Source: Hyphochytrium catenoides
Lineage: Eukaryota > Sar > Hyphochytriomycetes > Hyphochytriales > Hyphochytriaceae
DNA: 31,538 nucleotides
Reading direction: 5' to 3'
Assembly: GCA_900088475.1 (NCBI GenBank)
Contig: FLMG01001810.1
Coordinates: 1 to 31,538, forward strand
Part shown: in pieces, positions 1,609-25,285 of the stretch
Position numbering within the stretch: position 1 is the first letter of the stretch
How the letters are laid out: each line of letters opens with the position of its first letter
Notes under the pieces: model-generated
Databases searched by the model: none
What the model was told of the DNA's origin: nothing
What the model saw: only the letters and a program-made list of their open reading frames with translations
Made by a program: the position numbers and the translations under genes

Positions 1609-3661
1609 TAACGTTCCTTTGATTTCTTTGTCTGCCAAAACTTGGATCTCATGATCCCCTGCACTCTCTCACAATTTCATATACGATAGACGGACAAGAG
1701 GAGAAAGACATCAAAGAGCACCTGAAGGAGAAACAATAGAGAAACAGAGAGAAGGAATAAAAGAGAACATCCTCTGTGTATCCTGAGTGGTATCGTTAGA
1801 GGAGCAAATAGGTGCCTCAGGAAGACTTAAAACAAGGAGGAGACCTGCTCTCTGACAAGGTGGCACACGAGAGCAAAGAAACACTACCCGACTCTCTCTT
1901 CATAGGGCAAAAGAGCTTCTTGTCTCTATTCTCCTGTTCTTCTTTCTCCTTCATAGCTCTGTTGCTCTTCTCATTTTCTGCCTCGGAGTTCTTCATTTCC
2001 TTCAATAGTTGTCGCTCTCTTCGGTCCTCTTCGCTCTCATTTGTCTTCCTCTATCGCGGTTTTTTTGCTATTGTTAGCTTTAGCTTACGATTAGAAATCC
2101 TTCCAACACCGGAGAACGAGAAGGTGGGGGTTCAGTGCAAAGGCAACTGAAGAAAATGCCGATGGGATATTGAGTCTTGCTTCGCCCTCCCCCTTGCCTG
2201 AAGCCCTCTAGGTAGAGCAGATCTCTTCCGCCGTCCCGATTTTAACTGCTTGCAGAATTCCTGCTAAAGCGGCCTCTGTTCCTGCTTCCCTACTACAAAT
2301 CAGAATTCAGACTAGCACATAAACTTCCTCAGTTGTGGTCCTGATATACCGCAATCACTGACTCACAGGTGAAGAAGCAGCCTGACAGCATTAGTCAATC
2401 CTTCCTCTTCACCAACTGTCTTCTCTGCTTGAGCAGGCTACAAAGTGTGACCTCGTTGTTATTGCTTTAAGCGAAGCCAGACTGATTTTGCTTCCGAGAG
2501 CTCTAATAACTCCGTCGTCGTGCTGTAAAATTCCAACCCTCGCAGCACTAACGGGAGGAGAAGAAAACACGTATGAGGAAGTAACCTTACCAAAGCTCTC
2601 GTATAATGGCTCGGACCATCATCACCCAGTAGTAGCAGAGGAAGTAGAAGACGCTAATAACAACGACATAATATGTCACCCTGAGCACCAAAATTGATGT
2701 TGTCTTCTTGCGTTTTCCTTAGTCTCAAGCCCTTGATGTTATGAACTATAGCACAGTCTTTACTATACTGAACGTCAAACCCAGCATTTGAAGCAGATAT
2801 TTTGCTTGGCTTGCCTGCAATACTCTTCCAAAAGAAGATATTATTCTATGTTGCCCGACTGACCATGAATGACTGCTGCGAGGCGGTAACAACAAGCACA
2901 CAACGCATGGCGGTGAACCATGCACATCTCTTCCTTTTTTTTTAACTCACTGCAAACCCCTCCATGCTTGCCTCTTCTGCACGTTGCTTCTCCTTGCCTA
3001 GAATCACCCCTTTCTTTTTTGTGTCCTTATCTGCTACTCATCCATCTGTACTCCTTAATAGATATTCCGTCTTTGATGGCTTCCTGTTTCCATTCCAGCC
3101 TCGCCTCCGTTTCTCCGATAACGTCTGTTACCTACTATCCGTATCATCATGCCAGATGCTCTTTCCTTGATTCTTTCCTGCCCACCATTTCTACTCTACT
3201 TTTCTGATATTATCGCCGCTACACAATGACTTCCTCGCTCTCAGCCTAAACCTAAAGCCGCTGTTTGCCCTGACTGTCAGTTGAAGCACTATTTTTTTTG
3301 TTCGATCCGTGCGTCTTTCGTACCCCTCCTTCTTGTCCCTCTATAGTGTCATTCTTCTTCTCCCTCTCTTCTATGTCGCTTTAACCCGGTTTGGTTGTTC
3401 AGTCATCACTCCTTTCTCTTTGCGATCTGTCGGCTTCTCTCCTCTCCGTGAGTTTGGCGCTTTGCTGCTCTAGTGAGATTCTCTTCTCGTGATCTCCTCC
3501 CCTTTATCCCTTGCTCCTGCTCTGACTAAGAGAGAGAGATATAATCTCGCTTGGCTCCCATTGGGTCATGTTCCCTTCTTATTCCTTCTCGCGTCCCTGC
3601 GTCTACAAGTCGCTCATCCATTTCCATGGGCTTCTTCCTGCTTCTCAGTCGCTCTCTGTTA

Positions 3662-3718
3662 TTTCCTGCACTAAAGGTAGGAGGGCGATCCGCCCTTTCC
3701 TGCATTAAAGGTAGCAGG
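3662..3718. repeat. Direct repeat flanking a small inverted repeat
   Basis: A 23-base unit starting TTTCCTGCA, with TAAAGGTAG in the middle and ending AGG, is present at 3662-3684 and 3696-3718 with two mismatches. Between and overlapping them is the palindrome AGGGCG-ATC-CGCCCT (82-96 of the same block, i.e. 3682-3696). The arrangement could form a small hairpin between two direct repeats; no function is evident. Confidence 0.75.
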
Positions 3719-4778
3719 AGAGCGAGATGAGAAGTTACTTCACCGGAATAATAATAGAAAAGTAAGGTAGGCTGAGAAAAGGAATAGGCCACTACTAATC
3801 TCTTGATCATTACAAAGGCGAGAACAACGAGCTTGAGAGAGTTCAGTTGATGACTGTCAGAACAACCTCGAGCGAAGGGAAGAGATGAACCTTAGCCGAA
3901 GAGGTAAAGCGTTTCCCCAAACATACTTCAAATAAGAAACGTATCACAACATTGGGATGGCAGAGCTCTCTATGTACCCATGCTGCCTTGCTTCCCACGC
4001 TCCTACGTGAGACAAACTGATGGATTACTTTTATTCCTCATTGGAAAGCTGACGCTGGAAGCCAGTCGTGGGCAGCGTCAATTAACATCTATAAAGTACA
4101 GGTTATCCTCTGGCTGCATAATAACTTTCCGGCTGCCATATAGATTATTACCAATCCACTAAAAGGAAGCCTCCTCTCCCTTGCTTTTTCTATATCCTTG
4201 ACATCATGAAGTGACGCCTCAGCCACTACTACGTGTCAGATGTATTATTGAGAGCGTTGGACTAGCGCCGCGTTGCCTATCGCACCTCCCCTGTCTTCTG
4301 TGCCTCTCGTGATCCAAGGCACAGTCGCCCATCATTAGATCCATCGTGCTTCTCTCACCCTGCCTCTTAGTTTTTGTTGAGCGTTCACGACCTGCCTGGT
4401 AGTGGGCAACCACAAGCCAAAGCGACATACACTTTAAGCACATAATCACTCAGCTATAGAGCCTGACAGCGACAAATGCCACCATGAGCTAAAAGACATG
4501 CTCTGTTGCTTCCAGAGTCCGCAACTACTGAGGTCATAAATTATAAGATTACAATCATTGCGTGGAAAAGCGTCAGCCGAGAGCTTCAAAGCAGAGAATC
4601 TGCTTGGTCTGCAAGAAGTCTCGGAATGATGCTATCCTTCTTGAATGTTGCTTGCGCTCTTACGTATTATTATTATAAATATGCTAAACTCAAAGAAGGT
4701 CTCCCTCTGTTCTTGGTGTTGGTCTATATCTGTCTTCCATCCCTCTTTGATGTGGCTGATGAAAACGTACCACCGCGT

Positions 4779-6169
4779 CTATGATGTCGCTTGTCTTCCA
4801 GCAAACCTTGCCCAACCAGGCGCCGACTCACAAAGTGCGGCAATGAGCCCCGTCCGCTTATCTTTATCATGCAGAAGACGGGCCAGATCTGGTACCAGCC
4901 GCCCCACCAGCTCTGGGTCAAACGTCTGCATTAGGTAATCGTAGAACTGCTTTGCCGATATTTCTTCCGTACCAAATCGGCGGGTTTGCTTAAGGAAGCA
5001 GAGATGTTCAGATGGCGGTGATGACAATTAGGGGTGTAGAGAGATAGGTCATTGTCAGTGGCGTGCAGCTCAGCGAGTATGGAACTCTTAAGGGAGCATG
5101 ATCATGGACCGGTTTTGCAGGAAAGTGCAAGGAAAGCCATATGCGCAGATATTGATCGCACCTTTTTGAAGGCATCAAGTTTCTTCTTGTCACCACCAAA
5201 GGCGTCTAGAACAGTCTGAAGAATGGCACGGTGCAGCTTCGCGGCCTCTTCACCTTCAAGGGGTTGCACATCTCCTGTAGGAGGCGAGGGAGTTTAGTGC
5301 TTGGCTTCAAAAGTTCTGTTCGGGGCCTACATTTGAGCTTACCTAGGGCCTTCAGCCGTCTCGCTTCCTTAGCTCCCGCCTCACTTTTATCAATAGCAGA
5401 CAGTCAGCGACGGCGTCAGAAAGTTTTGAAGACTGCACAACTATAGGGATTAGACTCCATGAAACAAAGCGAAGACTTACAGTTTCCGTTTCTCCTCTTC
5501 TTCTCTCTTTTGCATTTCCTCTGCTTCTCTCTCTCGTTGCAGCTCTGCCTCTCTTTCCCGCGCCTCTCGCCGTCGCTGTCTCTCAACTTCAAGTCGATCT
5601 ACAAAGTCCTTGTGTGCCTGGAGCAGACTACCGCGCTTTACCTCGTCTGTCATATCTCAGGTCAGCAACCATATAGACAGAAGAGGTGAGGAGCCACCAG
5701 CACGTGAAGGGCCGCGTTGCGACGACATTCACAGCGTTTGCGACACAGGAAGAAAGAAAAATTGTAAAGCATGGTCCCGTCTCTCTTGAGCCTCGGACTC
5801 GCAGCGAACTAATTGCCTACCTGGCAGCAGCTTGGCCATGTCTGGTACCAGAGAAACAGTAAAGCTATTTCCAAGTATCTAGAAGCAACATCGTTTAGAA
5901 AACGTTAGCTGGAAAGGATAAGTATGGCGTAGTCGTCGCAGATGTGTCTATACTATACGCTGGCGAAGACGGTTTGTCAAAACTGAATGACAACACAAGC
6001 GGATGGACATATGAAGGCTGTCTCGGTATCTCCCTACCTGCGCAAGATGCCTAATCAGCTGCTCCGCCGACGTTTCTCCGGACCCGTACTTGCGAGACTG
6101 AAATCGAAATTCCTCAGCAAGATTGCCTTTACCCAGCTCATCACCCCGGCGGGTTATGCGCTCGATAAG
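4779..6169 (-). other. Formin C-terminal tail with two tandem helical modules
   Basis: Module 1 (exons 6169-6038, 5878-5821, 5655-5481) contains EEFRFQSRKYGSGETSAEQL, then SLVPDMAKLLPD. Module 2 (exons 5274-5162, 4988-4779) contains FKKQTRRFGTEEISAKQFYD, then RLVPDLARLLHDKDKRTGLI. Both follow the pattern F..Q...+(Y/F)G..E.SA.Q...L...LVPD.A+LL.D, so they are a tandem duplication separated by an E/R/K-rich coiled coil. The pattern resembles the C-terminal helical segment of ZNF598-type E3 ligases as I remember it. A function inside a formin is unknown; a DAD-like role is possible but not shown. Confidence 0.7.
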
Positions 6170-9100
6170 CTGGGAAGAAGAAAGAAAGAGTCGTAAGGGC
6201 ATGGGCCATGAGAAACAGGGCTACAGCAGACGCCAGCTAGGCAGAGTTGGGCTGCGCCAATCTAGTGCGGGACACTACCTTAGAGTAGAGAGCTTTTGCC
6301 TCAGGTCCCGTAACATATCCTGCCTGCCGTGCCTTCTCCGCAGCAATACGCGCTAGGAGAACAAGATAGTTTAGAGATATTGCCAGCGCTAACTAATAAG
6401 TATGGAGTGATCAACTATCAATTCGAGCGTGAAGTACGTCCGTCTTAAAGAGACTTCCGAGATGAACTGAACGCAACCTTTCTCTTCTTCCTCTGCATCC
6501 CTCTTGGCCGCCCGTTGCTCTTCTATCGCCTTGGCAATTTGCGGAGACCTATTCATCTCGATTGCGCTCTAATCATTTTAAGGAAGCGAGAAGATCAGGT
6601 AGGTTAGACAGGGTCATAAGTGGCAGTTTAGGCTTCTTAAGCTCATGAATTGGTAAAAAAGAAGGCCAAGATGGCCTATTGCCAGCGGACTTCACTGAGG
6701 TCTACTTTCCCTCTGAATGAATCACGTTCTTTTGCCTGGTAGCAAACGAATTGGCTAGATAGGAGACAGCGGCCGCGGCAGAGAAGATGGGCCGCAAGAA
6801 GGACAGCGAGGGTTTGAAGTCCGTACCTTGAAGGCCGAGGTGAACTGATCAAAAATTCCAAAAAACTCTTCTGAGGTCAGGATTTTTGGGTCTTCACCGA
6901 AGGAACCAACAATGGCCTTGTAAGAAAATTCCAAAGTGGTAAAGTCGGTTTCCAGCTCAGAAACCACCTGTCCGAAATGTAGTGAGGCAACAAATCAGCG
7001 CCAAGTTCCATGAGGAATCTACGAAAGAGTAGGAAAGAGCAGTGCCCACGCAAGGAGAGCTCCACTTGTGAGTCTCATTACCGTTTGGCAACAAGATGGT
7101 ACATAAAATCTAACAGAAATGTATCTCACGACTTAGGAGCCAAGGCGAATCGAAAACGGCCAGGGGTTCCCACAGTGTTTACCTGAGCTGCCTCCAGAAC
7201 AAACGGCTCCATAACCTCTGTAAAGCGATCCCCTTCTTGCGGTTGCTGCTTAGCAGCAGTCAACTGTGCTTCTGTCAATCTAAGATCTGCAGAAAGGCGT
7301 TGCAGCTCCGACCGTAGCGAAGGAAGGGAGATGGCCTTGGCAGAGGAAGAGTGCGACAACTGCATATGACCATAACAGATGTGGTCAGTCCAGGCTACGT
7401 CCGAAGACATCATGGGGGGAGGCAATTACGCATGCGCTGTTAAATCATGGTCGCGTACAGTTCCCGCATCGGGCGCATCCCGAATACAGCCCAAGATTCT
7501 AACTGCCATGACTTTGTCTGCAATCTCTATTCCGAAACAGCACTGCCTTACCTCAGCTGGCAGAGAGCTTGCCTCTGGAGATTTCTCTTCGATCACTAGT
7601 GCTAGATAATTCATCTGAAGATAAGAGGCACAAGGAGTCATCTTAACCAGGGGCGTCTTTCCTTCATGAACGAGATGGGAGACTAATAAGCAGTGACGGA
7701 TGTTCGGCGCGTCTTGCATAGGGCACAAGGGTAACGTGCAGTAGGTGAAAGAGTAAGGGCGAGAGTTCAATCGATAACACATCCAGCTGTCAATCTCATC
7801 ATACCAGAGACGTTTTGTTATCTACTGCTTTTAAGTTGGAGAGCTTCGAAAGAGTGTCCAACTTAAACCCGTAAGCTTGGCCTCTAGGCGTTGCAGCGTT
7901 CAAATAATTGCCGATGGCCAGCACAGCCTAACATGCGTTTCAAAGGTCCGTAAGCATTCTGGCGAGGTCCTCCAGCGCTGTACGCTACGAAAAGAGAATA
8001 GCACTAGACGGACCCACTCTACCCAGGCAATTAGCGAATAACAAGGCCCAGTTAAACAAGTCAAAATATTTCAAAACCATCCCATGACCATGGCGCTTCC
8101 TCGCGGCTGAGCGCAGACTCAAAGGGTCTTCCCTACCTCTAAGACTTTTCTTAGGCATCTGCTGTTCTTGATCTCATCTGTTGCTGCTAGTAGGGTATCG
8201 ATTTGATCTTGCACCTCAATAGCCTGATGGGATAGAAGAATTGAGAAGAAAAAAGTTAGATCGAGGCCCACATTAAAGCCCGCTTCTATCTGACAGTGGA
8301 CAGCAAGGTAGGAAGGGATCAAGACATGCAGCACTACATGAAAGTGCATACGATAGCTCACTGACCCTGTTTTCAAACTGCAGTCGAAATAGAAAGCTCT
8401 TGAGCCGCGGGATGTAGCGAGGAATAGTGAGTAGCTCACGCAGATACCTGCAGCGTGCAAGATCAGTAAGGATAAGACTATACGCACTATTGGCAAGTGA
8501 GTCGAGGCGGCATTGTCTGCCAAGAGAGACTGTCGATATGGACTACACCAGAGACTTTTTTCAAATGGCATTTAGGACACTTCGCTTCATCTTGGCTTAT
8601 GAATATTCGGGAAAGAGGATGACAGACCAACCACCATCTTACTTTTCGACGCTTCCAAGAGTATTCGGGTCTCCTTCAAAATTGCTTAATTGATCCATCT
8701 CCTCAGTGGTCGGCGCCTGTTCTATCAAGCTTGACACAATTTCCGGTGCTAAGAGGAGAGCAAAGAAAATTAAGAGTTAAGCAAACCCCTGATGTTAGGC
8801 ACGAGCCTTTACAACGTGAGAGCTGCCGCTCGCAAAGGTAAGCTCTAGATCGACTGGCGATAGAGAAGTAGCCTCAGTCTAGTCAAAAATACAGTCATGT
8901 AGCAGATGGGACTTTCTCTTACTCAATTTGGACTCATCCAGCTCAAAAATCGCTCTCTTCAGTTCAGATGCGGGCATTCTGTATCGAGCTATGGCTATTC
9001 CAATATTCTGTTGCCGCTTAGGGTCAAGGAGGAGAACGCTGGAAGGCTTCTTTGTACTTCCGCTCTCCTTCGAGTCACCAGCGGACGCGAACTTGTTAGA

Positions 9101-12100
9101 GGCTGAGCCAAAAGCGATAGATCAGTTCATTAGGATGAAGCCCATTGTACAGGAAAAGAAGCTACTTTAGTGCACCCGCATCAATCTATATATATATATA
9201 TACTGCGGTGTAAATAAACCAACCTGGCTTCTTCCTGAAGAACCATTCCAGGTCTGAAGCATCGAACTGGAACCTTTCATCGTTCATCTCAGTCCAAATC
9301 GTGTTGTTTAGCTGCAATAGCAAGTTGTTACTACTCCTGCTGCTTCCAGCGACCTGAGGACTCATGGTCACAGATGGTACTTCGGGTTATACCCCCACCT
9401 CTGCAGGAGCAACTTTGCTCCAAAACAAGCCTTTAAGCTCTACATTAGGCTTCAATTCCTTCTTCGGAGGCAGTTTCGGCTCAGGAGCTACATACAAAGC
9501 AGGGAAAGGTCAGCTGCCAGCAGAAGTGGGAAAGAGTTTTATGCTCCAGTCGGTATTATGCACAGCGAGCAGCGAAGACGGAATAGAAGCAACTGTGGTA
9601 ATGGCCTACTGCGGGACACCAAGGTTATCGGAAACAAGGCCTCATCAGCTGCAGCACAAACGTAAGGCAGCCAGTTTCGTCTTCCAGCTAAACCTGTTGC
9701 GGACAGTATGCAAGAACACCATAGAGAGAAGACATCCAAACAGATATGAGACGGACGTTTTGGCTTAGGCGGAGGTGCCGCTGCGCGAGCGGCCAACATT
9801 GCAGCAACCGGATTGGCCGGAGGTCGTGGCTCCACGCTGCTTGCAGTTGCCTGAGGGACCGCGGTGGCAGGAGACGAACGCGACGAAACCATCGCCCCGC
9901 TAGGGGAGTCTGCCTCCGGGTTATCCAAGAGTGATGGATCTAGGCCCTCTGTTTCATAGTGGTGGACAAGAAAGGTGGGCAGTCATCAGCAAAGTGGTAA
10001 CAATCAACTAAAGATTGAGGGGGTCGCAACAGGATCATCAGCCCCCGTACGCAGAAGGTACTTTTGTAGATATGTGCATAATTGACAGACATGGTGTAAG
10101 GAAGTTGAGAGTCAATGAAGCAAAACCTGCAGTCATCTTGAGTTTAATCTGTTCTACGGGCATCCCCATCTTCTGCAGTTTAAAAAACTTCGCAAACGAA
10201 GGATCTTCCCGAACGGTCATCTTTCTGGTCCCTGCACATCAAAGTATGGAAGGATTGGCGGTCATGGTCGCCGTAGAGGTCCCCAAAAGCACAACGTCGC
10301 TACCTGCTGATACAGCTGATGCCGTAGCATTCGGAGACGGAGCGTCTGGGGTGTCAAGTAGATCTGGATTCAGGCCTTCTGCACTCATTTTGAGCTTGAT
10401 CTGAGGGGGAGGCATCCCCATTTTCTGCAGTTTAAAAAACTTCGCATATGCTGGGTCATCCTATGGATGTTGAGATGTGGGTCCACACAAAAGTTTGAAA
10501 GGTGATAAGTCACAAGCATGAAATCGGAAACGGGAACGGGATGGGATGCGACCACGATGACACGACGAGCATATGGCACGGTAGTAGCAGTGGGGACCAC
10601 GTAAGGAGATCGAGGAAAAGGAGCATGATAGGTATGGTGATTGAGCATGCCCAGCAGACCAAGTGCAACATGGTTACGCCTAAACCAAGACAACTATACT
10701 ACCGATAAGAAGCACCTTTACTGTGAGAGAGCTGGAGAGCGGTGCAGACGAGATTGAGGACGCAGATGAAGCGGGAACGTTGGGAGAAGGGGCATCCGGT
10801 GTATCCAGTAGGTCGGGATTTAACCCTTCGGCGCTCATCTTTAATTTAATCTGCTCCGAAGGCATTCCCATCTTCTGGAGCTTGAAGAATTTCGCAAATA
10901 GCGGATCGTCCTAGAGGGAATGGCAAGCGGAAAATGTCAGGACGATCTACGTGGAGCTTTCTATTAACCTTCTAACGTAGGAAAGAACAAGCCAGGGCCA
11001 CACCAAAAAATTTAGACAAAGCTGGAAGAACCAGTAAGGAGTAAACTTTTGTAGCTCTCCAGTCCTTATCAGGAGCTAGACTGAGGCCAAGCTCAGGTCG
11101 TAAGGATTCTCTAGATGATTGCCTTCAAATACCTTTACTGTTAAAGCCGACACTACGGAACTCTCAGAGGGAGAAGGACCAGGCGGAGGCTGAGGACGGG
11201 TAGTTCCTGTCGTGGACGCAATTGTAGCTGCAGCGGCGTGAGCCTGTACGTAAACAGCAGTTAGTATTGGAGGACAGAAGCTCGGACAGAAACACTGAAG
11301 GGAAGTCATCGCCGCAGCATATCCAGTATAGAAAATGTCCCTTACCAGTCTTAACTCCTCTTGCAGCCTTGCCACCTCTTCTCTCAGCAACATGTTCTCC
11401 TCTTCAAGTCTTTGGTCCTCTTTGGGCGAGGGTTCCGGAGCCGGGGTTAGGGGTGGTGGTTGGCTTGGGGGTTGAGGAACCAAGTGTGAAGGAGGTTGGG
11501 GAAGGAGGGATGGGGGCGCAGGCGTAAGAGGAGGCGCCGGTGTGCGGGGAGGAGTAGGTCCGGTCGAAGTTGCTCGTGCTCTGGAGTCATTTGGGCTTTC
11601 TGGATAGCTAGTTGGCGGCCGAGGGCCAGAAACTATGGAGAGGTTCGGAGAGTCATTGGACAGCTAAGTATTGAGGCCTTCTTCCAAAAGTAAGTAATAG
11701 AGATAGCAGATTGATACAAACGACACCAACAAGGATCAGGCAGCCAAGAACAGACGTTGCGAGCCACCTCAGAGGGAGTCCTAATCAATAAAATGACCCA
11801 GAGCTGAAGAAAATTTGCAGTTTGCAGTGAAGAAGGCTGCAGTATCCAAACCTGAAGCGGGTGGTGTGGGTGTCAGCTTGGGCCCTGTGATTGTTCCCAC
11901 TGTCGGTGACGGCAGAAGGGACTGAGATGAATCGGAACGGGTCGAGCTTCCAGAGAGGCGCTGACTGGGAGGAGGTTGATACCGTCGCCTTCGCAGTCTG
12001 TTCAGCAAGCATTTTGGCTTAGCAAGAAGCATTAATCACACGTCCAACAGGAATAACAGGTCACGGAGAGTCGATTTCCAGCAAGCAACTGGGTCTTATT

Positions 12101-13154
12101 AAATCATCCACTCTAAACTCCAAGAATAAAACACGTTATAGACCCAGGCGACAGGCTTAACAACCACCATATCGCGGACCACTATATCGCTCTAAGGGAT
12201 CTTCCTACCTGATGCCCAGAATGCTTCTGCCCTTAGGACCATTCAGGGAGTTGCTGGAAGCCTGCCTCTTCACCTCAAAAACCTAAACGGAGACAAGCCT
12301 GGTCAATCCATGCATCTTTCCTACTCCGTCCTCTTCATTGCTCATAGCCAGTTCGGCCACTCTTACCTTCTCTCTTCTCCTAGTCCATCGTCTGCGTCTA
12401 ACCATGTCAAAGGTAGACGGTGTGGCCTTAGACTCACCCTTGAAGAGCTTCTTGTCCAAGCCACTCCAGCTCCTGGCATAACTCCAACCTAATAAATAGC
12501 CACATTTGTTGGCAGGGACGATGGATTGAAAAAAGCGGTTAGCGTTGACTGGACCAGAAGAGTCAAATGCTAATAGGTTTGCTTTAGAAAGTTGGGCCAG
12601 ACAAGACGATGAAAGACCCCGACGGGACGCCTTGGACTTAAAGAAGGGCGAGGAGGAGGACAGAGTGTCCTCCTCAAAAAATGTAAGCGACTCAAAGGAT
12701 AAGAACAAGCAGACTTCAGGGGCCATTCTTTAGTCTGCCGTTGAAAGTATGCGCGAGGAGTCAAGAGGACAAAGAAGAAAGTGTTCGGATGCTCCACCTT
12801 CACTGTCGCACTCTGTGTACGAGTAATCTATCTCCCAGTCGGAGATCCACCGCCAACCTTCAGGCAAGGGGAGACTCAGGGCAAGATCTTGCTCTCCTGG
12901 TGCTCTGCTTCCACCAGGCGGAACAGCGTGACGGAAACATGGGGGAAGGTTAGGGAATCTTCGTCATGATAGAGCTGAAGGATTGACTGTGTCTGTTGTC
13001 GCTCGACCCCAGCGCGTTCTCACCTGGAGATGCCCTCTCCTGCTCTGTCTGTGTAGGGTTCTCTGTCTACAATGCCCATCTTATCCGACCACTTGCCCCC
13101 CAGCGTCTTGCGCTGGTTCTCAAAGATCTCGTCCACATAAGTTTCAACCGTCAT
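4779..13154 (-). CDS. Formin (FH2) with DysF, CCDC53-like and ZNF598-C-like modules, 29 exons
   Basis: Predicted to be an actin nucleator and elongator of about 1218 aa. Coding exons, 5' to 3' on the minus strand: 13154-13024, 12904-12798, 12488-12367, 12282-12209, 11997-11852, 11632-11346, 11243-11133, 10910-10716, 10460-10304, 10231-10127, 9948-9757, 9487-9399, 9311-9224, 9102-8923, 8748-8643, 8447-8366, 8223-8137, 7927-7805, 7614-7552, 7359-7183, 6967-6827, 6568-6478, 6352-6279, 6169-6038, 5878-5821, 5655-5481, 5383-5343, 5274-5162, 4988-4779. All junctions are GT-AG and phase-consistent; the total is 3657 nt ending in TAG. Domain order by residue: DysF 6-120; proline-rich 194-265; coiled coil 268-289; three CCDC53-like motifs 327-495; short proline/lysine-rich linker 530-560; FH2 about 560-945, including AIGNYLN at 757-763; charged coiled coil 1055-1115; ZNF598-C-like modules at 985-1060 and 1145-1215. 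The ATG at 13154 is the only in-frame Met before the DysF domain, but a splice-acceptor-like CATTTGCCAG lies just upstream, so a 5' exon is possible. The weakest junction is the donor after 9757 (C|GTCCGT). Confidence 0.88.
6478..9487 (-). other. Exons encoding the FH2 domain
   Basis: Twelve exons read through a complete FH2 core. Landmarks in order: GLFWSKVAP; NNTIWTEM; LLLDPKRQQNIGIAIAR with MPASELKRAIFELDE; PTTEEMDQL with FEGD; IPRLKSFLFRLQFE; AIGNYLNAATPRGQAYGFKL; LSNLKAVDNKTSLMNYLAL; DRFTEVMEPF; and IVGSFGEDP with SEEFFGIFDQF. GNYLN and the GFKL segment are classic formin signatures. The junction 7805/7614 restores KTSL-MNYL exactly where formins have a TLLHYL-like stretch. No expected block appears to be missing, so nucleation and barrel-dimer function should be intact (inference). 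Confidence 0.93.
9186..9203. repeat. (TA)n microsatellite inside a formin intron
   Basis: About nine TA dinucleotides lie in the intron between exons 9311-9224 and 9102-8923. They do not overlap the splice sites. Confidence 0.85.
10127..10910 (-). other. Three tandem CCDC53-like motifs in the formin
   Basis: Exon 10910-10716 encodes motif 1 (DDPLFAKFFKLQKMGMPSEQ...). Exon 10460-10304 encodes motif 2 (DDPAYAKFFKLQKMGMPPPQ...). Exon 10231-10127 encodes the first half of motif 3 (EDPSFAKFFKLQKMGMPVEQ...), completed in exon 9948-9757 as EGLDPSLLDNPEA. Each reads DP..AKFF..QKMGMP..QIKLKM.AEGL.P.LLD.P.A. From memory this matches the conserved core of WASH complex subunit 3 (CCDC53, Pfam PF10152). 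Motifs 1 and 2 are followed by APSPN and low-complexity S/A/T linkers. Confidence 0.85.
12367..13154 (-). other. Exons encoding the N-terminal dysferlin (DysF) domain
   Basis: The first three exons of the formin give both halves of a DysF domain. The N half shows VDEIFENQRK, then GGKWSDK and DREPYTDRAGEG. The C half shows LPEGWRWISDWEID, DSEGWSYA and VRRRRWTRR, the usual paired GW.W..W..D / GW.YA / RRRRW pattern. This fold is known from dysferlin/myoferlin and fungal peroxins (Pex30/Pex23 type), where it is linked to membranes. The exons join in phase with the proline-rich formin exons (12282-12209 onward), which argues against a separate gene. Confidence 0.85.
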
Positions 13155-14288
13155 CCCTCCCGCACAACTGGCAAATGCCAAGGAGACAGAGCGTATAACT
13201 CTTGTGGATACTAAGAGCCCTCCGAGCACCTTAGGGCCCCTCGCTGATGGGCAAGACAGCAGGCTGTGCGCAACTGCTTTGAAAGAAGAGCGGAGGTGGA
13301 AGGGAGACTACAAGGCATCAAGGACTACAACGCAACCAGGATCGGTAGGTAGCCTCATGCGTGCGGGACTACTGCTAGTCCTGCCCTGTTGCCGTCAGCC
13401 CAACTTCTTCTGATAGTGCATTGAAGCCGTTGTCGGCTGCTGCAGCCTACTTTTCTCTCTTCATGCTACAAGTAGACTGCTGCTGTTGAAAAAAGCTGCG
13501 GGCAGTCAGAGGAGAAGCCTGAACGACTGAACTATCTCACTGTCTGAAGGGCTGAGTGCTGAGTGGAAGGGATCCTAGGAACTAGCTTGGCAGCAAAGCA
13601 GGAGTAGGAGAGTGGCGGGAGGGAAGAAGGCAGCACGAGGAGTGAAGCTTGCAAGCCCTCGAACGGAAAGAAAAAGTTTGGGCTCCCTTGCGAGCATCAC
13701 GAGGACAACGTCGGCGGTTAAGGATAAGGTAAGATGGCATTCTGGCAGTATTGATTTCAACTAGAAAGGACTAGCAAAGGGTTAAGGTTTGAGGCAAAAG
13801 ATGCGCCGTAATGTCCAGCCCAAGATTGAAGTCCCACCCACCGAAATATCGGAGTATGAAGATGAAAAATCATACAGAAATAGTGAAGAAGTACCGGCTC
13901 GGGATCCGCTATTGTACCTTCAGAGTGAGGGTGCTTGCGAATCATGAGTAACCTTTTTCACAGCAGCGGAGAGAGAGAGACACACAGAGAAAGAGACAGA
14001 GAGACAGACAGAGAGAGAGAGTGAGAGAGAGAGTGAGAGAGGGAAAGAGAGAAGGGAGACCAGAAGCGGGACGAGGAAGAGCATGAGAGGCCAGAGAGGG
14101 AAAGACTTCTTATTAGAAGATAGTGACTGAGCAAGGCAGTTGGAGAGAGAGAGAGAGACGGTTGACAGCTTAGAGTTGCCCCTTCTTCCTTGCTGGTCTT
14201 GCCCAGTGGCTTTGGTTAGGGTCAAAAGGCACTTTTAACCTCTCTTGCGCGCTTCTCCCTCCTCAAGCCTGCAGCCGCTGCTGCTGGC
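13155..14288. promoter_or_regulatory. Divergent intergenic region (formin / conserved protein) with GA-rich tract
   Basis: About 1.1 kb separates the formin start codon from the start codon of the plus-strand gene at 14289, so it should contain both promoters and 5' UTRs. Its main feature is a GA-rich purine tract at 13968-14060 with a second (GA)n run at 14142-14158, close to the plus-strand gene. I see no convincing TATA element. The minus-strand translation of the tract is a low-complexity S/L/V repeat and is not a gene. Confidence 0.6.
13968..14158. repeat. GA-rich purine tract
   Basis: Runs of GA with interspersed CA and GT steps cover 13968-14060, and a further (GA)n run lies at 14142-14158. 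It sits 130-320 bp upstream of the ATG at 14289. GA tracts of this kind can exclude nucleosomes or bind GAGA-type factors in other eukaryotes; here that is inference. Confidence 0.9.
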
Positions 14289-21011: not shown

Positions 21012-22612
21012 ATGAGTAGCACAAGTCACATCGCGCTGCGGTTCGTGCAGCTGCTGAAAGCTGCAGCTTATGTCTACACCACGGCCTCAATTTTAATGGC
21101 TCTCAGAAAGTTCATGAGGCTTAGGCACACCAGAGCACGGCTAACCGGCCCAGCAACGACGGATCCGTGCCAGCATTCTCTCTTCTGCAACCACTATGTC
21201 ATGAGTAAGAAGGTGGGAAAACAGCTCTTCTACGGGGTATCCTGTTGTGTCTTCCTCTCATTGTCGCATGTGTCTAATCCATTCTGCATCTCTAGGGTCT
21301 TTGGCTCTTTACTCGTTCATGGGTGCCCACAAGTGGCCCCATCCGTGGTGTCATTTTTATCATTCATGGAATGAACGAGCACATTTTGCGGTACGAGGCC
21401 GTCGCGGAGATGTTGAAGGCGAATGGCTTCGCTGTCTTCGGCATGGACAACCAGGTATAGACCTTATATAGTGACTTCCAAGCAGGTGGATTTTCAAATG
21501 GACCGCATTTCTCAAAGGAAAACTGTGTCATTGGGAGAAGAGTTCTCTCATTCGATTTACCTTCTTAGCACATTTTCTGCCTTCTATATGTCTTTGAATC
21601 AGCTCTTCGTCACTAACTCATGTCCTATGCCTAGGGGATGGGCCGAAGTGAGGGCGATCGCCTCCACGTGGAGCATTTCTTAGACTATGTGGAGGACTAC
21701 TTGGACTTTATGCGCGGCGTACTGGACGAAAAGACCATCAAGAGCCCGGGCAAGCCATTTATAAAGCTGCCTCGCTTCATTTTAGCCCATTCGATGGGCA
21801 CTGTCATTGGCATTCGGTTGAGAGAGGTAAGTTTGGGTCAGGTGCAAGGAGTCAATAGAGCGACGAAGGACTTCATAAAATAGATGGAGAGACTTATGAT
21901 GGTCCTTACCTGCTTCTGCGGCGTCGGCATACGGGCTGCTTCTCTCATGTCCTGCCTGGCTCTTGATTAGGCTTGTGAAGCTGCGAACATCCCTTTGGAT
22001 GGTATTATTTTGTCAGGAGCAGCTCTAATGGTGGATCCTGGCCTGGACAACCCTGTCATGAGAATCGTCTCCAGGGTCCTTAGTTCCCTATTCCCGAAGA
22101 TGCCGGCCCCCAAAATCGATGCTCGTCTGATCTCAGAAGACGATACCGTACGTCTGTCTGTACTTGTTTCCCATTCTTAGCGTAACTCAGAAGACTATCG
22201 GGCCCAGCAGGCGGAGCATGGATCACCTTTATTAGTTGCTGAACAAAACGTCGTCCTCTGCCCTTTGCAGGTTGTCGAGCATTATCTGAGGGACCCGTTG
22301 GTCACTGTGGAGAGACCGACCATGAAGTTTGGAAAAGAGGCCGTGGACAGCATCCGATACTGCCAGAGCTACTGCAAGCAGCTGACAGAGCCACTTCTTA
22401 TTGTGCATGGCGCAGACGATAAGCTGTGCTTCCCTCAGAGTTCCAATCTCATCTACGATCAGGCAGCGTCTAAGGACAAGACTCTTAAAATATACGACGG
22501 GATATCCCACGAACTCTTTAACTCTCTCAAGCGGGATAAGGTGCTCTCTGACATTTTGCAGTGGCTGAATGTTCATCTTCCACCGTCCAGCCCCTCAAAG
22601 AAAAGTAAGTAG
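21012..22612 (+). CDS. Monoacylglycerol-lipase-like alpha/beta hydrolase, 5 exons
   Basis: Exons 21012-21236, 21296-21454, 21635-21826, 21971-22147 and 22271-22612 join in phase 0 throughout into a 364-aa serine hydrolase. The oxyanion-hole motif HGMNEH begins at residue 99, followed by FGMDNQGMGRSEG as in the monoglyceride lipase / lysophospholipase family. The nucleophile is Ser181 in AHSMG. The acid is Asp301 or Asp300 in HGADDKLCF, and the base is His331 in DGISHELFN. Residues about 12-35 form a hydrophobic segment near the N-terminus, suggesting a membrane anchor. The family cleaves monoacylglycerols or lysophospholipids to free fatty acid; exact substrate cannot be read here. The N-terminal 75 residues extend beyond the minimal fold. 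All catalytic elements are present, so it should be active. Confidence 0.92.
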
Positions 22613-23635: not shown

Positions 23636-25285
23636 ATGGTAGAGAATGCTGATGCGACGCCAAGGGCACTTGGTGTCCGCGCCACTATTGTGTCGGAGCA
23701 GCAGGATTGGGATTATCACTATCTCATCAAGCGCTATGAAAGCTTAGCCAAAGATACAAAGCAGCTCTTCGACGAATATAAGGTCGTCGCCAGTGAGGAA
23801 TTGCGCCTGAAGAGCGAGAAAAAGTAGGTCTAATCCCATAGCACCTTTACAGCTTCATATGACTGCTTAAGCAATGCCTTGCCAACCTTTCTATGGAAAA
23901 GGTTCTTGATGGAGCGATTAGCCACCCTCAGACGTCGGAGAGCACTATCATTTGCTCCTGGAAGGCGAGGAGGAAGGACCCCGGGACGTGGAGTAAGCAA
24001 GCGTTCTCTCCTTTGCCATCTTCCTTTGAATCTCTCCCTCACTCGTCTACTCCCATTGCTTCTCCCTTCTGTTGTTCGTGTCCGTCGATCTCTGACGGAT
24101 TTCCTACGCATACAATAGGGTAGAGGCGGCGGCCGGCGGGGTCGAACCGAGACCCCGAGAAACCGCCCATCGCCGCTGACACCCACGCCGTCGGGCGCAG
24201 CAGGGAGACTGCCTGATGGAACAGCAGATCGGAAGCGAACCCCGCGCGGTAGAGGCCGCGGGACCCCACTTGGAAGTCGTCACCGAGCAGGAACTGGGTC
24301 CCCGAGATCCCTAAGTTCGTCAGAAGTAGCGCAGGTCCGGCGAGCCGCTAGCGCAACGGTGCAGGAAAAGGGGCTTGCTCGCGGTCCCCCAACACCATTC
24401 ATCCTGTTCTGTGAAGAGCAGCGGCAGAAGCTTGAAGACCATAATAAGCCGGTACGAGACTCTCCGGCTTTGTGGCAGTGCAATCCTCGCGAGAGTCAGA
24501 TCCCCTGATTACCTGGGTCATGCAGATACCAGCAGATTTCTCAAGGCTCATGGCTGACCTCTTTGACGATCTTTCGGAGAGTGAAAAGCAGGTAAATTTA
24601 GCGATTGCCCAAAGAATATAACCGTCGTCGATGGAAAAAGTAGGGCAGCGCATTCGTTGTCTAAGGAGTTAATTGGTTTGCTTGATAGGTGTACCAAGAT
24701 AGGCATATGGAGCTCACGAGACAGCATAAAGCCAAACATCCTGACTACCAGACGGAGCAGGTCAGGAAAGGGCGCGTCCAGGCCATCAACACTGCCAGCA
24801 GCCATTGACCCTTTTACCTTCTCTCATCTGTGCCCTTCCTTCCCTGCAACTCTTATGTATACTCCCTCTTCTGACTCCATCTTTATCCTCCTCCGGCGCT
24901 AAATCCGCCATAGCATGCTGCGCCGAGCTTCATCAGCCCACAACCACCAAGTTTGCCACAGCCGAGTCGAAAGTCTTTCCTATCCCACGTTATCCTGAAT
25001 CCAGACAGCGGCCCGTTTTCGAGCTCGTTGTTGCTGCACGATGAAGATGCAATGGAGGTCAGTGTCTAATGACTAAACATCAATTTTGACCTCCAGATCG
25101 CCGCCTCTTCCCCACCGGGTGTTCCGTCTCTTCTATCTATACTATCGGTTCCCTAATGGATGCGTACTGGTTCTCTGACGCAGAAACGAGACAGCGGGAT
25201 GATGGAGGAGGAGGATGAAGATGATGACGAAGACGAGGATGACGACGAGGATGACTTTACCCTTCTTAACAACCGCTATATGTAG
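23636..25285 (+). CDS. HMG-box protein with coiled-coil N-terminus and acidic tail, 7 exons
   Basis: Exons 23636-23823, 23902-23992, 24119-24451, 24526-24591, 24689-24760, 24914-25057 and 25184-25285 join in phase into about 331 aa. Residues 20-80 form a charged helix (YHYLIKRYESLAKDTKQLFD, then LRLKSEKKFLMERLATLRRR). About 80-150 is rich in R, G and P. The HMG box is at 183-250: PPTPFILFCEEQRQKLEDHN, then FSRLMADLFDDLSESEKQ, then VYQDRHMELTRQHK. The usual helix-2 Trp is Phe in LFDDLS. The protein ends with an uninterrupted D/E run (about 305-322) and NNRYM. It should be a nuclear, DNA-bending chromatin protein. The coiled-coil plus HMG arrangement is reminiscent of Nhp10-type INO80 subunits, which is inference. 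The first exon may start further upstream; a splice-acceptor-like GCTGTCATCAG precedes the ATG. If intron 5 were retained, a stop at about 24807 would remove the acidic tail. Confidence 0.85.

Follow-up and report, generated by a model that had tools for sequence, protein, structure and literature searches.

The described systems that lie closest to the gene considered here are proteins with a DysF domain, formins and WASHC3 (CCDC53). The DysF domain of TECPR1 has a stacked core of four tryptophans (W116, W118, W122 and W138) and four arginines (R159, R161, R165 and R167; PMC10476172). The accessible parts of two surveys of formins (PMC2386819, PMC5628938) make no mention of a repeat module shared with WASHC3 in the place of FH1; the main text of the former uses none of the terms DysF, CCDC and WASH, and a supplement legend names FYVE among the domains found in a single species. 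Arp2/3 is reported to be absent from diatoms (PMC3298513). A literature search, outside which most subscription papers lay, yielded no paper joining formin, CCDC53 and FH2, or formin, oomycete, FH2 and FYVE, or formin, dysferlin domain and FH2. Here, we describe what is probably a single gene, for a formin with a DysF front end, in a stretch of 31,538 nucleotides from Hyphochytrium catenoides (contig FLMG01001810.1 of assembly GCA_900088475.1; hereafter the window), in which it occupies positions 4779..13154 of the minus strand.

This gene looks real, and the observation made in a sequence-only reading of the window is confirmed. Its product is a variant of an existing, little described formin class shared with oomycetes. 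The earlier reading knew of no characterised formin with such a set of domains: the class itself is present in databases, as oomycete FYVE-CCDC53-FH2-PAH proteins, although no paper on it was found. We consider it probable that one gene encodes a membrane-docked formin that has docking sites, in the form of a motif array, beside its FH2. If it is one protein, an actin polymerase is joined to a DysF membrane module (plus FYVE in Saprolegniales), and actin assembly directed by DysF becomes testable.

Structure of the gene and its product

The genome searched comprises 42.5 Mb in 1105 contigs, the window being contig C1053. Exons traced independently of the sequence-only reading run from an ATG at 13154 to a stop at 4779, limits identical to those given before, and 30 of them join into a single coding sequence of 3648 nt, which encodes 1215 amino acids followed by the stop, with phases agreeing throughout. 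All 29 introns have GT-AG ends and are 68-309 nt long (median 173), and retention would disrupt the frame for 28 of them. The phase-consistent spliced frame claimed over 4779..13154 is thereby confirmed; the 29 segments claimed become 30 exons. The difference may have arisen because intron 6 (11345-11244, 102 nt), the sole intron retainable in frame, has no in-frame stop. The ATG at 13154 is the first in-frame ATG downstream of an in-frame stop, and it lines up with the point where the orthologues from Saprolegniales begin.

From the N- to the C-terminus, the product consists of DysF, a Pro-rich region, a coiled coil, three copies of the CCDC53 (WASHC3) tail motif, FH2 and two PAH_ZNF598 domains. 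A Pfam scan of the joined protein upheld the order of its recognized domains and the completeness of FH2, both as proposed earlier. FH2 (residues 541-911, exons 12-21, 6827..9464; all features of the gene are on the minus strand) covers positions 2-372 of the 372 in the Pfam model (E = 1.2e-100), that is, the complete domain. It matches the FH2 structure of mDia1 (PDB 3o4x, E = 8.7e-58), with which it aligns end to end. Two residues matter for FH2 activity, an Ile in an N-[IL]-x-I motif and a Lys in an L-x-KL motif; both are kept here, and the domain may well be active.

The DysF domain, at about residues 5-110, is encoded by exons 1-3 (12367..13154). It is recognized by Pfam as the C-terminal part of Pex24p, which corresponds to the DysF region (residues 9-106, E = 2.3e-9), and by PDB matches to dysferlin (residues 5-110, E = 3.1e-6) and myoferlin (residues 6-110, E = 5.1e-6). 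Its W51, W53, W57 and W71 and its R100, R102, R106 and R108 have the Trp/Arg spacing of the TECPR1 stack, the last Trp gap being 14 versus 16. A protein search with the DysF region gave three matches among 67 candidates, P0092 (with C2), P0093 (Chlorella) and P0094 (E = 3.1), and no FH2 is listed in any of them. A second DysF stretch in the genome, 31% identical to that of the window, is located on contig C577 (4767-5084, minus strand), which has no FH2 match.

Exons 4-5 (11852..12282) encode a weakly conserved linker (residues 111-183), basic and then Pro/Ser-rich, which is open and in phase and contains the join in which the model is weakest. Exon 6 (11346..11632) combines a stretch rich in Pro with a coiled-coil segment (LEEENMLLREEVARLQEELRL) that aligns with an LxxEN... 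segment in all eight orthologues compared. The Pfam model of CCDC53 matches the protein in three stretches (E = 4e-38), the best of which covers model positions 93-147; in the genome search, only positions 105-147 were matched on this contig. Tail motif 1 (residues 317-355) lies in exon 8 (10794..10910) and motif 2 (residues 382-420) in exon 9 (10344..10460), each exon being recognized by Pfam on its own (E = 7.9e-10 and 5.7e-11, respectively), and motif 3 (residues 442-480, 9914..10208), divided by an intron over exons 10 and 11, overlaps the best Pfam stretch (residues 424-477); all three are also found by a motif hidden Markov model. A short Pro-rich segment precedes FH2 (PPPKPKPPEPKLPP, approximately 9460..9790), its longest Pro run being 3, and it is at most a reduced FH1. 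Of the two PAH_ZNF598 stretches (Pfam E = 5.7e-31), the first (exons 25-27, approximately 5630..6169) is supported also by tblastn of residues 989-1049 to another PAH locus, and the second (residues 1122-1198, exons 29-30, 4833..5236) by 60% identity to Achlya over 4997-4794. Pfam gave no match to FH3/GBD or PTEN in the protein, FYVE has no match on the window contig, and tblastn with four FYVE-ribbon segments revealed no overlooked exon of the window for FYVE or the zinc ribbon at E ≤ 1. Elsewhere in the genome, PAH_ZNF598 and FYVE matches lie near each other on contigs C350 and C961.

The coding exons are as follows: exons 1-6 at 13154/13024, 12874/12798, 12488/12367, 12282/12209, 11997/11852 and 11632/11346; exons 7-12 at 11243/11133, 10910/10716, 10460/10304, 10231/10127, 9948/9757 and 9487/9399; exons 13-18 at 9311/9224, 9102/8923, 8748/8643, 8447/8366, 8223/8137 and 7927/7805; exons 19-24 at 7614/7552, 7359/7183, 6967/6827, 6735/6706, 6568/6478 and 6352/6279; and exons 25-30 at 6169/6038, 5878/5821, 5646/5481, 5383/5343, 5274/5162 and 4988/4779.

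Orthologues in oomycetes

Among the 91 matches of a protein search are oomycete proteins with FYVE, CCDC53, FH2 and PAH_ZNF598, and the alignments of three of them from Saprolegniales (P0037, P0041 and P0048) span 98-99% of the query. Alignment with the orthologues is good for the exons of the motifs, FH2 and the second PAH, and poor for exons 4-5, 22, 24, 27 and 28. In an FH2 tree (FastTree, 31 rows, eight of them pieced together from exon matches at other loci of the window genome), the window protein groups with the oomycete class with a support of 0.971. It has the FH2 grouping, the CCDC53 motifs and the two PAH_ZNF598 domains of this FYVE/PAH formin class and lacks the FYVE and the zinc ribbon, which were either lost here or gained in oomycetes.

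Apart from the extra FYVE and zinc ribbon, the domain order described for the window recurs in relatives: in four proteins from Saprolegniales, the same N-terminal position is taken by a diverged DysF, which is followed by FYVE, a coiled coil, the motifs, FH2 and PAH. The first 110 residues of P0037, P0041 and P0048, ahead of FYVE, resemble a worn DysF. A profile of four Saprolegniales N-termini (these three and P0133 of Aphanomyces stellatus) aligned by hhalign to a six-member DysF profile with a probability of 95.4 and a score of 50.6, versus 19.1 for the best of 100 column shuffles and 13.7 for the highest-scoring of 14 segments taken from elsewhere in these proteins; the probability was still 93.9 with the window sequence removed from the DysF profile. 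Five Peronosporalean N-termini scored 12.8, and none of the scanned Peronosporalean and Albugo models matched DysF. When 95 proteins were searched with the DysF profile, the top oomycete matches were the three Saprolegniales members of the class in that set, P0048 (E = 3.3e-4), P0037 (0.0016) and P0041 (0.057).

The motif array before FH2

A motif profile built from 375 copies has the core K-F-F-K-L-x-K-M-G-M-P-x-x-x-V-x-x-K-M, then G-x-D-P and L-x-x-P-D. The FH2 model matches nine contigs of the genome (C217, C147, C425, C798, C1100, C113, C1053, C1049 and C1038), loci thus found by FH2 alone and not by the motif, and CCDC53 matches are present on all nine, with 1-5 motif copies before FH2 at each; the tenth CCDC53 contig is C890. 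No Pro run of at least 5 was found at any of the nine in the open stretches (at least 15 residues, three frames of the locus strand) between FH2 and a point 900 nt ahead of the last motif.

A protein set of 147 (146 retrieved plus the window's) includes 135 with FH2, 132 with the motif and 123 with both; because the queries bore the motif and one search contributed the 120 of its 149 matches that were listed, the motif frequency in this set is biased. In all 123 the motif is upstream of FH2, with a median of 55 residues between the last copy and FH2 (range 17-126), and none has a motif more than 300 residues after the start of FH2. Within the 150 residues before FH2, the longest Pro run is at most 5 in 121 of them and 8 in the remaining two. 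The longest runs in the 12 FH2 proteins without the motif, one of which (P0051) belongs to the oomycete class, are 1, 1, 3, 6, 7, 8, 8, 8, 8, 9, 10 and 11. In P0135 and P0141, both derived from ENA, a DSP/PTEN-like region occurs together with six motifs and FH2 (the domains of P0141 being those of its listing).

AlphaFold2 models the motif block inside P0048 as three short helices (pLDDT mostly about 77-88). A model of exon 9 alone has two confident helices, for which Foldseek gave a single match (E = 9.4). The WH2 consensus has an LKKV core. The motif was considered as a WH2 and rejected: the glycine fits by eye, but conservation is lacking at the leucine of that core (column 17, L in 27%), and Pfam gives CCDC53 only. 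The motif also occurs without FH2 in the MYND-finger oomycete proteins P0083, P0138, P0140 and P0142 (MYND according to listings; P0138 scanned). On C1100 (about 3500-5700, minus strand), FYVE and the motif share one open frame, followed by FH2, with a WH2 match downstream (24411-24461); the FH2 pieces of this locus group outside the class of the window protein.

The array occupies the position of FH1, and FH1-like work is a candidate role for it. It is a more interesting lead than the window protein itself: in the formins covered here, a repeated module shared with WASHC3 is found where FH1 would be, and these natural fusions offer a route to test the function of the WASHC3 tail.

A proposed mechanism and its alternatives

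The mechanism that we propose starts from what is observed, namely the open spliced frame, the domain identities, the kinship of FH2 with the oomycete class, the Saprolegniales order and the position of the motifs. Translated from what is predicted to be a single transcript, the protein would be positioned by its N-terminal DysF, which most likely attaches to a lipid of a membrane or to the surface of an organelle; the coiled coil would contribute oligomerisation, and the dimeric FH2 would nucleate and processively elongate unbranched actin at that surface. The three CCDC53-tail modules before FH2, where other formins have FH1, may serve as docking sites for an actin-assembly partner, and the two C-terminal PAH_ZNF598 helical domains may hold a regulator or cargo.

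Do the DysF and FH2 exons belong to one gene? The agreement of phases, from which a single gene had been argued, carries little weight on its own, as the sequence admits two genes as well: translation continued beyond exon 4 runs into an immediate stop (12207-12205), and an in-frame ATG (12032), 172 nt further, is continuous with exon 5, so that a DysF gene and a separate formin gene are conceivable. The model would then have merged two same-strand neighbours by splicing, a small DysF protein (exons 1-4, up to the stop at 12207-12205) and a CCDC53-FH2-PAH formin starting at 12032 or later. We judge this quite unlikely. Exons 4-5 are indeed hardly conserved (identical to Achlya at 7 of 24 and 10 of 38 aligned residues), and C577 carries a DysF stretch with no FH2 match on its contig; but intron 4 has an in-phase GT-AG pair, and the same read-through stop and in-frame ATG recur at intron 18, inside FH2 (both features in 2 of 29 introns). 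A scan of 11900-12350 for bacterial-type promoters and terminators, which is not applicable to eukaryotic signals, gave no minus-strand site. It is comparative evidence that favours one gene: since four Saprolegniales proteins share an N-terminal DysF-like domain ahead of the same formin, in the same order, DysF-CCDC53-FH2-PAH is most likely an arrangement inherited within one gene.

Besides the stop, the ATG and the poor conservation of exons 4-5, several points weigh against a membrane-docked formin encoded by one gene. The Saprolegniales DysF is diverged (BLASTP E = 3e-4, 24%), and the window DysF alone aligns to the four Saprolegniales sequences with an hhalign probability of 2.4. P0041 (0.057) did not reach the level required for inclusion in the DysF profile search, the Pfam Pex24p matches of Achlya (3e-5) and A. 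euteiches (0.0058) are both below the cut-off, and Saprolegnia has none. The Achlya N-terminus as a single query finds no DysF structure, AlphaFold2 gives residues 1-110 of the A. euteiches protein a pLDDT below 50, and the Saprolegniales gene models are database annotations, taken as given. As to the membrane, lipid binding is not a general property of DysF: exposed sphingomyelin is recognised, in the comparison of human DysF domains given in PMC10476172, only by the N-terminal DysF of TECPR1. Residues 90-99 of the window DysF, where spacing places the membrane Trp of TECPR1, contain no Trp. No role with sphingomyelin is thus predicted, and the partner may be a different lipid or a protein.

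What might the motifs do? That such arrays stand in for FH1, delivering actin or an actin carrier to FH2, is an idea we hold tentatively and with more doubt than belief. It agrees with the array being N-terminal to FH2 in 123 of 123 proteins, with the shortness of Pro runs in 121 of them and at all nine genome loci, and with a genome in which cofilin/ADF is matched (E = 3.6e-36) and the profilin model is not, in a profilin search run without a positive control and with its sensitivity to intron-split genes not established. It is opposed by the Pfam result for five motif peptides (only CCDC53, no WH2), by the lack of a Foldseek analogue with E below 9, by the persistence of Pro clusters before FH2 (25 Pro in 150 residues in the window protein), by the collection of the protein set with motif-bearing queries and by Table 1 of a 2008 survey, in which FH1 is scored present in stramenopile formins (PMC2386819). 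A broader form, in which stramenopile formins as a group gave up a long polyproline FH1 and feed FH2 via tandem WASHC3-tail modules, the WASHC3 tail being a general actin-assembly module coupled here to a DysF membrane sensor, seems rather improbable. Also unlikely is that the motifs attract the WASH complex or imitate it, which would have the formin work with Arp2/3 at endosomes. The sequence-only reading had taken the motif as a WASH/endosome mark, and the genome does contain a WASHC3-like locus: on C890 (about 4608-6538 of the segment 15500-25400, plus strand), an N-terminal CCDC53-family match is followed by two tail-motif matches (5321-5440 and 6449-6538) separated by long polyproline stretches. 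This locus looks like WASHC3 itself; its tail motif is up to 67.5% identical to the formin repeats, and FYVE in the oomycete orthologues points the same way. However, the motif is found at all nine FH2 loci, in FH3-type and PTEN/DSP-like formins and in MYND-finger proteins, and therefore is not specific evidence for a WASH or endosomal role; the window protein gave no match to FYVE, which is the endosomal module of this formin class; and the WASH_WAHD and strumpellin models are unmatched in the genome, in searches with the same two limits as that for profilin. A partnership with WASH may exist, but the evidence does not point to one.

Other features

A CT-rich low-complexity stretch (13980-14160, minus strand) lies upstream of the formin start, and an open frame at 22181-22612 of the plus strand resembles, by eye, the C-terminal part of an alpha/beta hydrolase. 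A RuBisCO search of the genome was negative, which does not decide photosynthesis, as plastid contigs are possibly absent.

Comparison with known systems

The window DysF matches that of TECPR1 and the ferlins over the whole domain length and in the spacing of the Trp/Arg stack; it differs in being joined to FH2 and in having no equivalent, by spacing, of the Trp at the membrane tip of TECPR1. The protein has the C-terminal motif of WASHC3 (CCDC53), but in three copies, and its best stretch leaves the N-terminal coiled-coil part of the family unmatched. With Diaphanous-type and PTEN-type formins it has a complete FH2 in common, and CCDC53 motif arrays are carried also by FH3-type oomycete formins and the two PTEN/DSP-like proteins; unlike them, it has DysF and no FH3/GBD or PTEN match. 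The oomycete FYVE-CCDC53-FH2-PAH_ZNF598 formins (P0001 of Phytophthora capsici, P0037 of Achlya hypogyna and P0048 of Aphanomyces euteiches) share with it FH2, three CCDC53 motifs, the coiled coil and two PAH_ZNF598 domains, with a best local identity of 34-46%, whereas the window DysF is much nearer to canonical DysF. The Saprolegniales members share, in addition, the N-terminal DysF-like domain, and have FYVE and a zinc ribbon as extras over the window protein.

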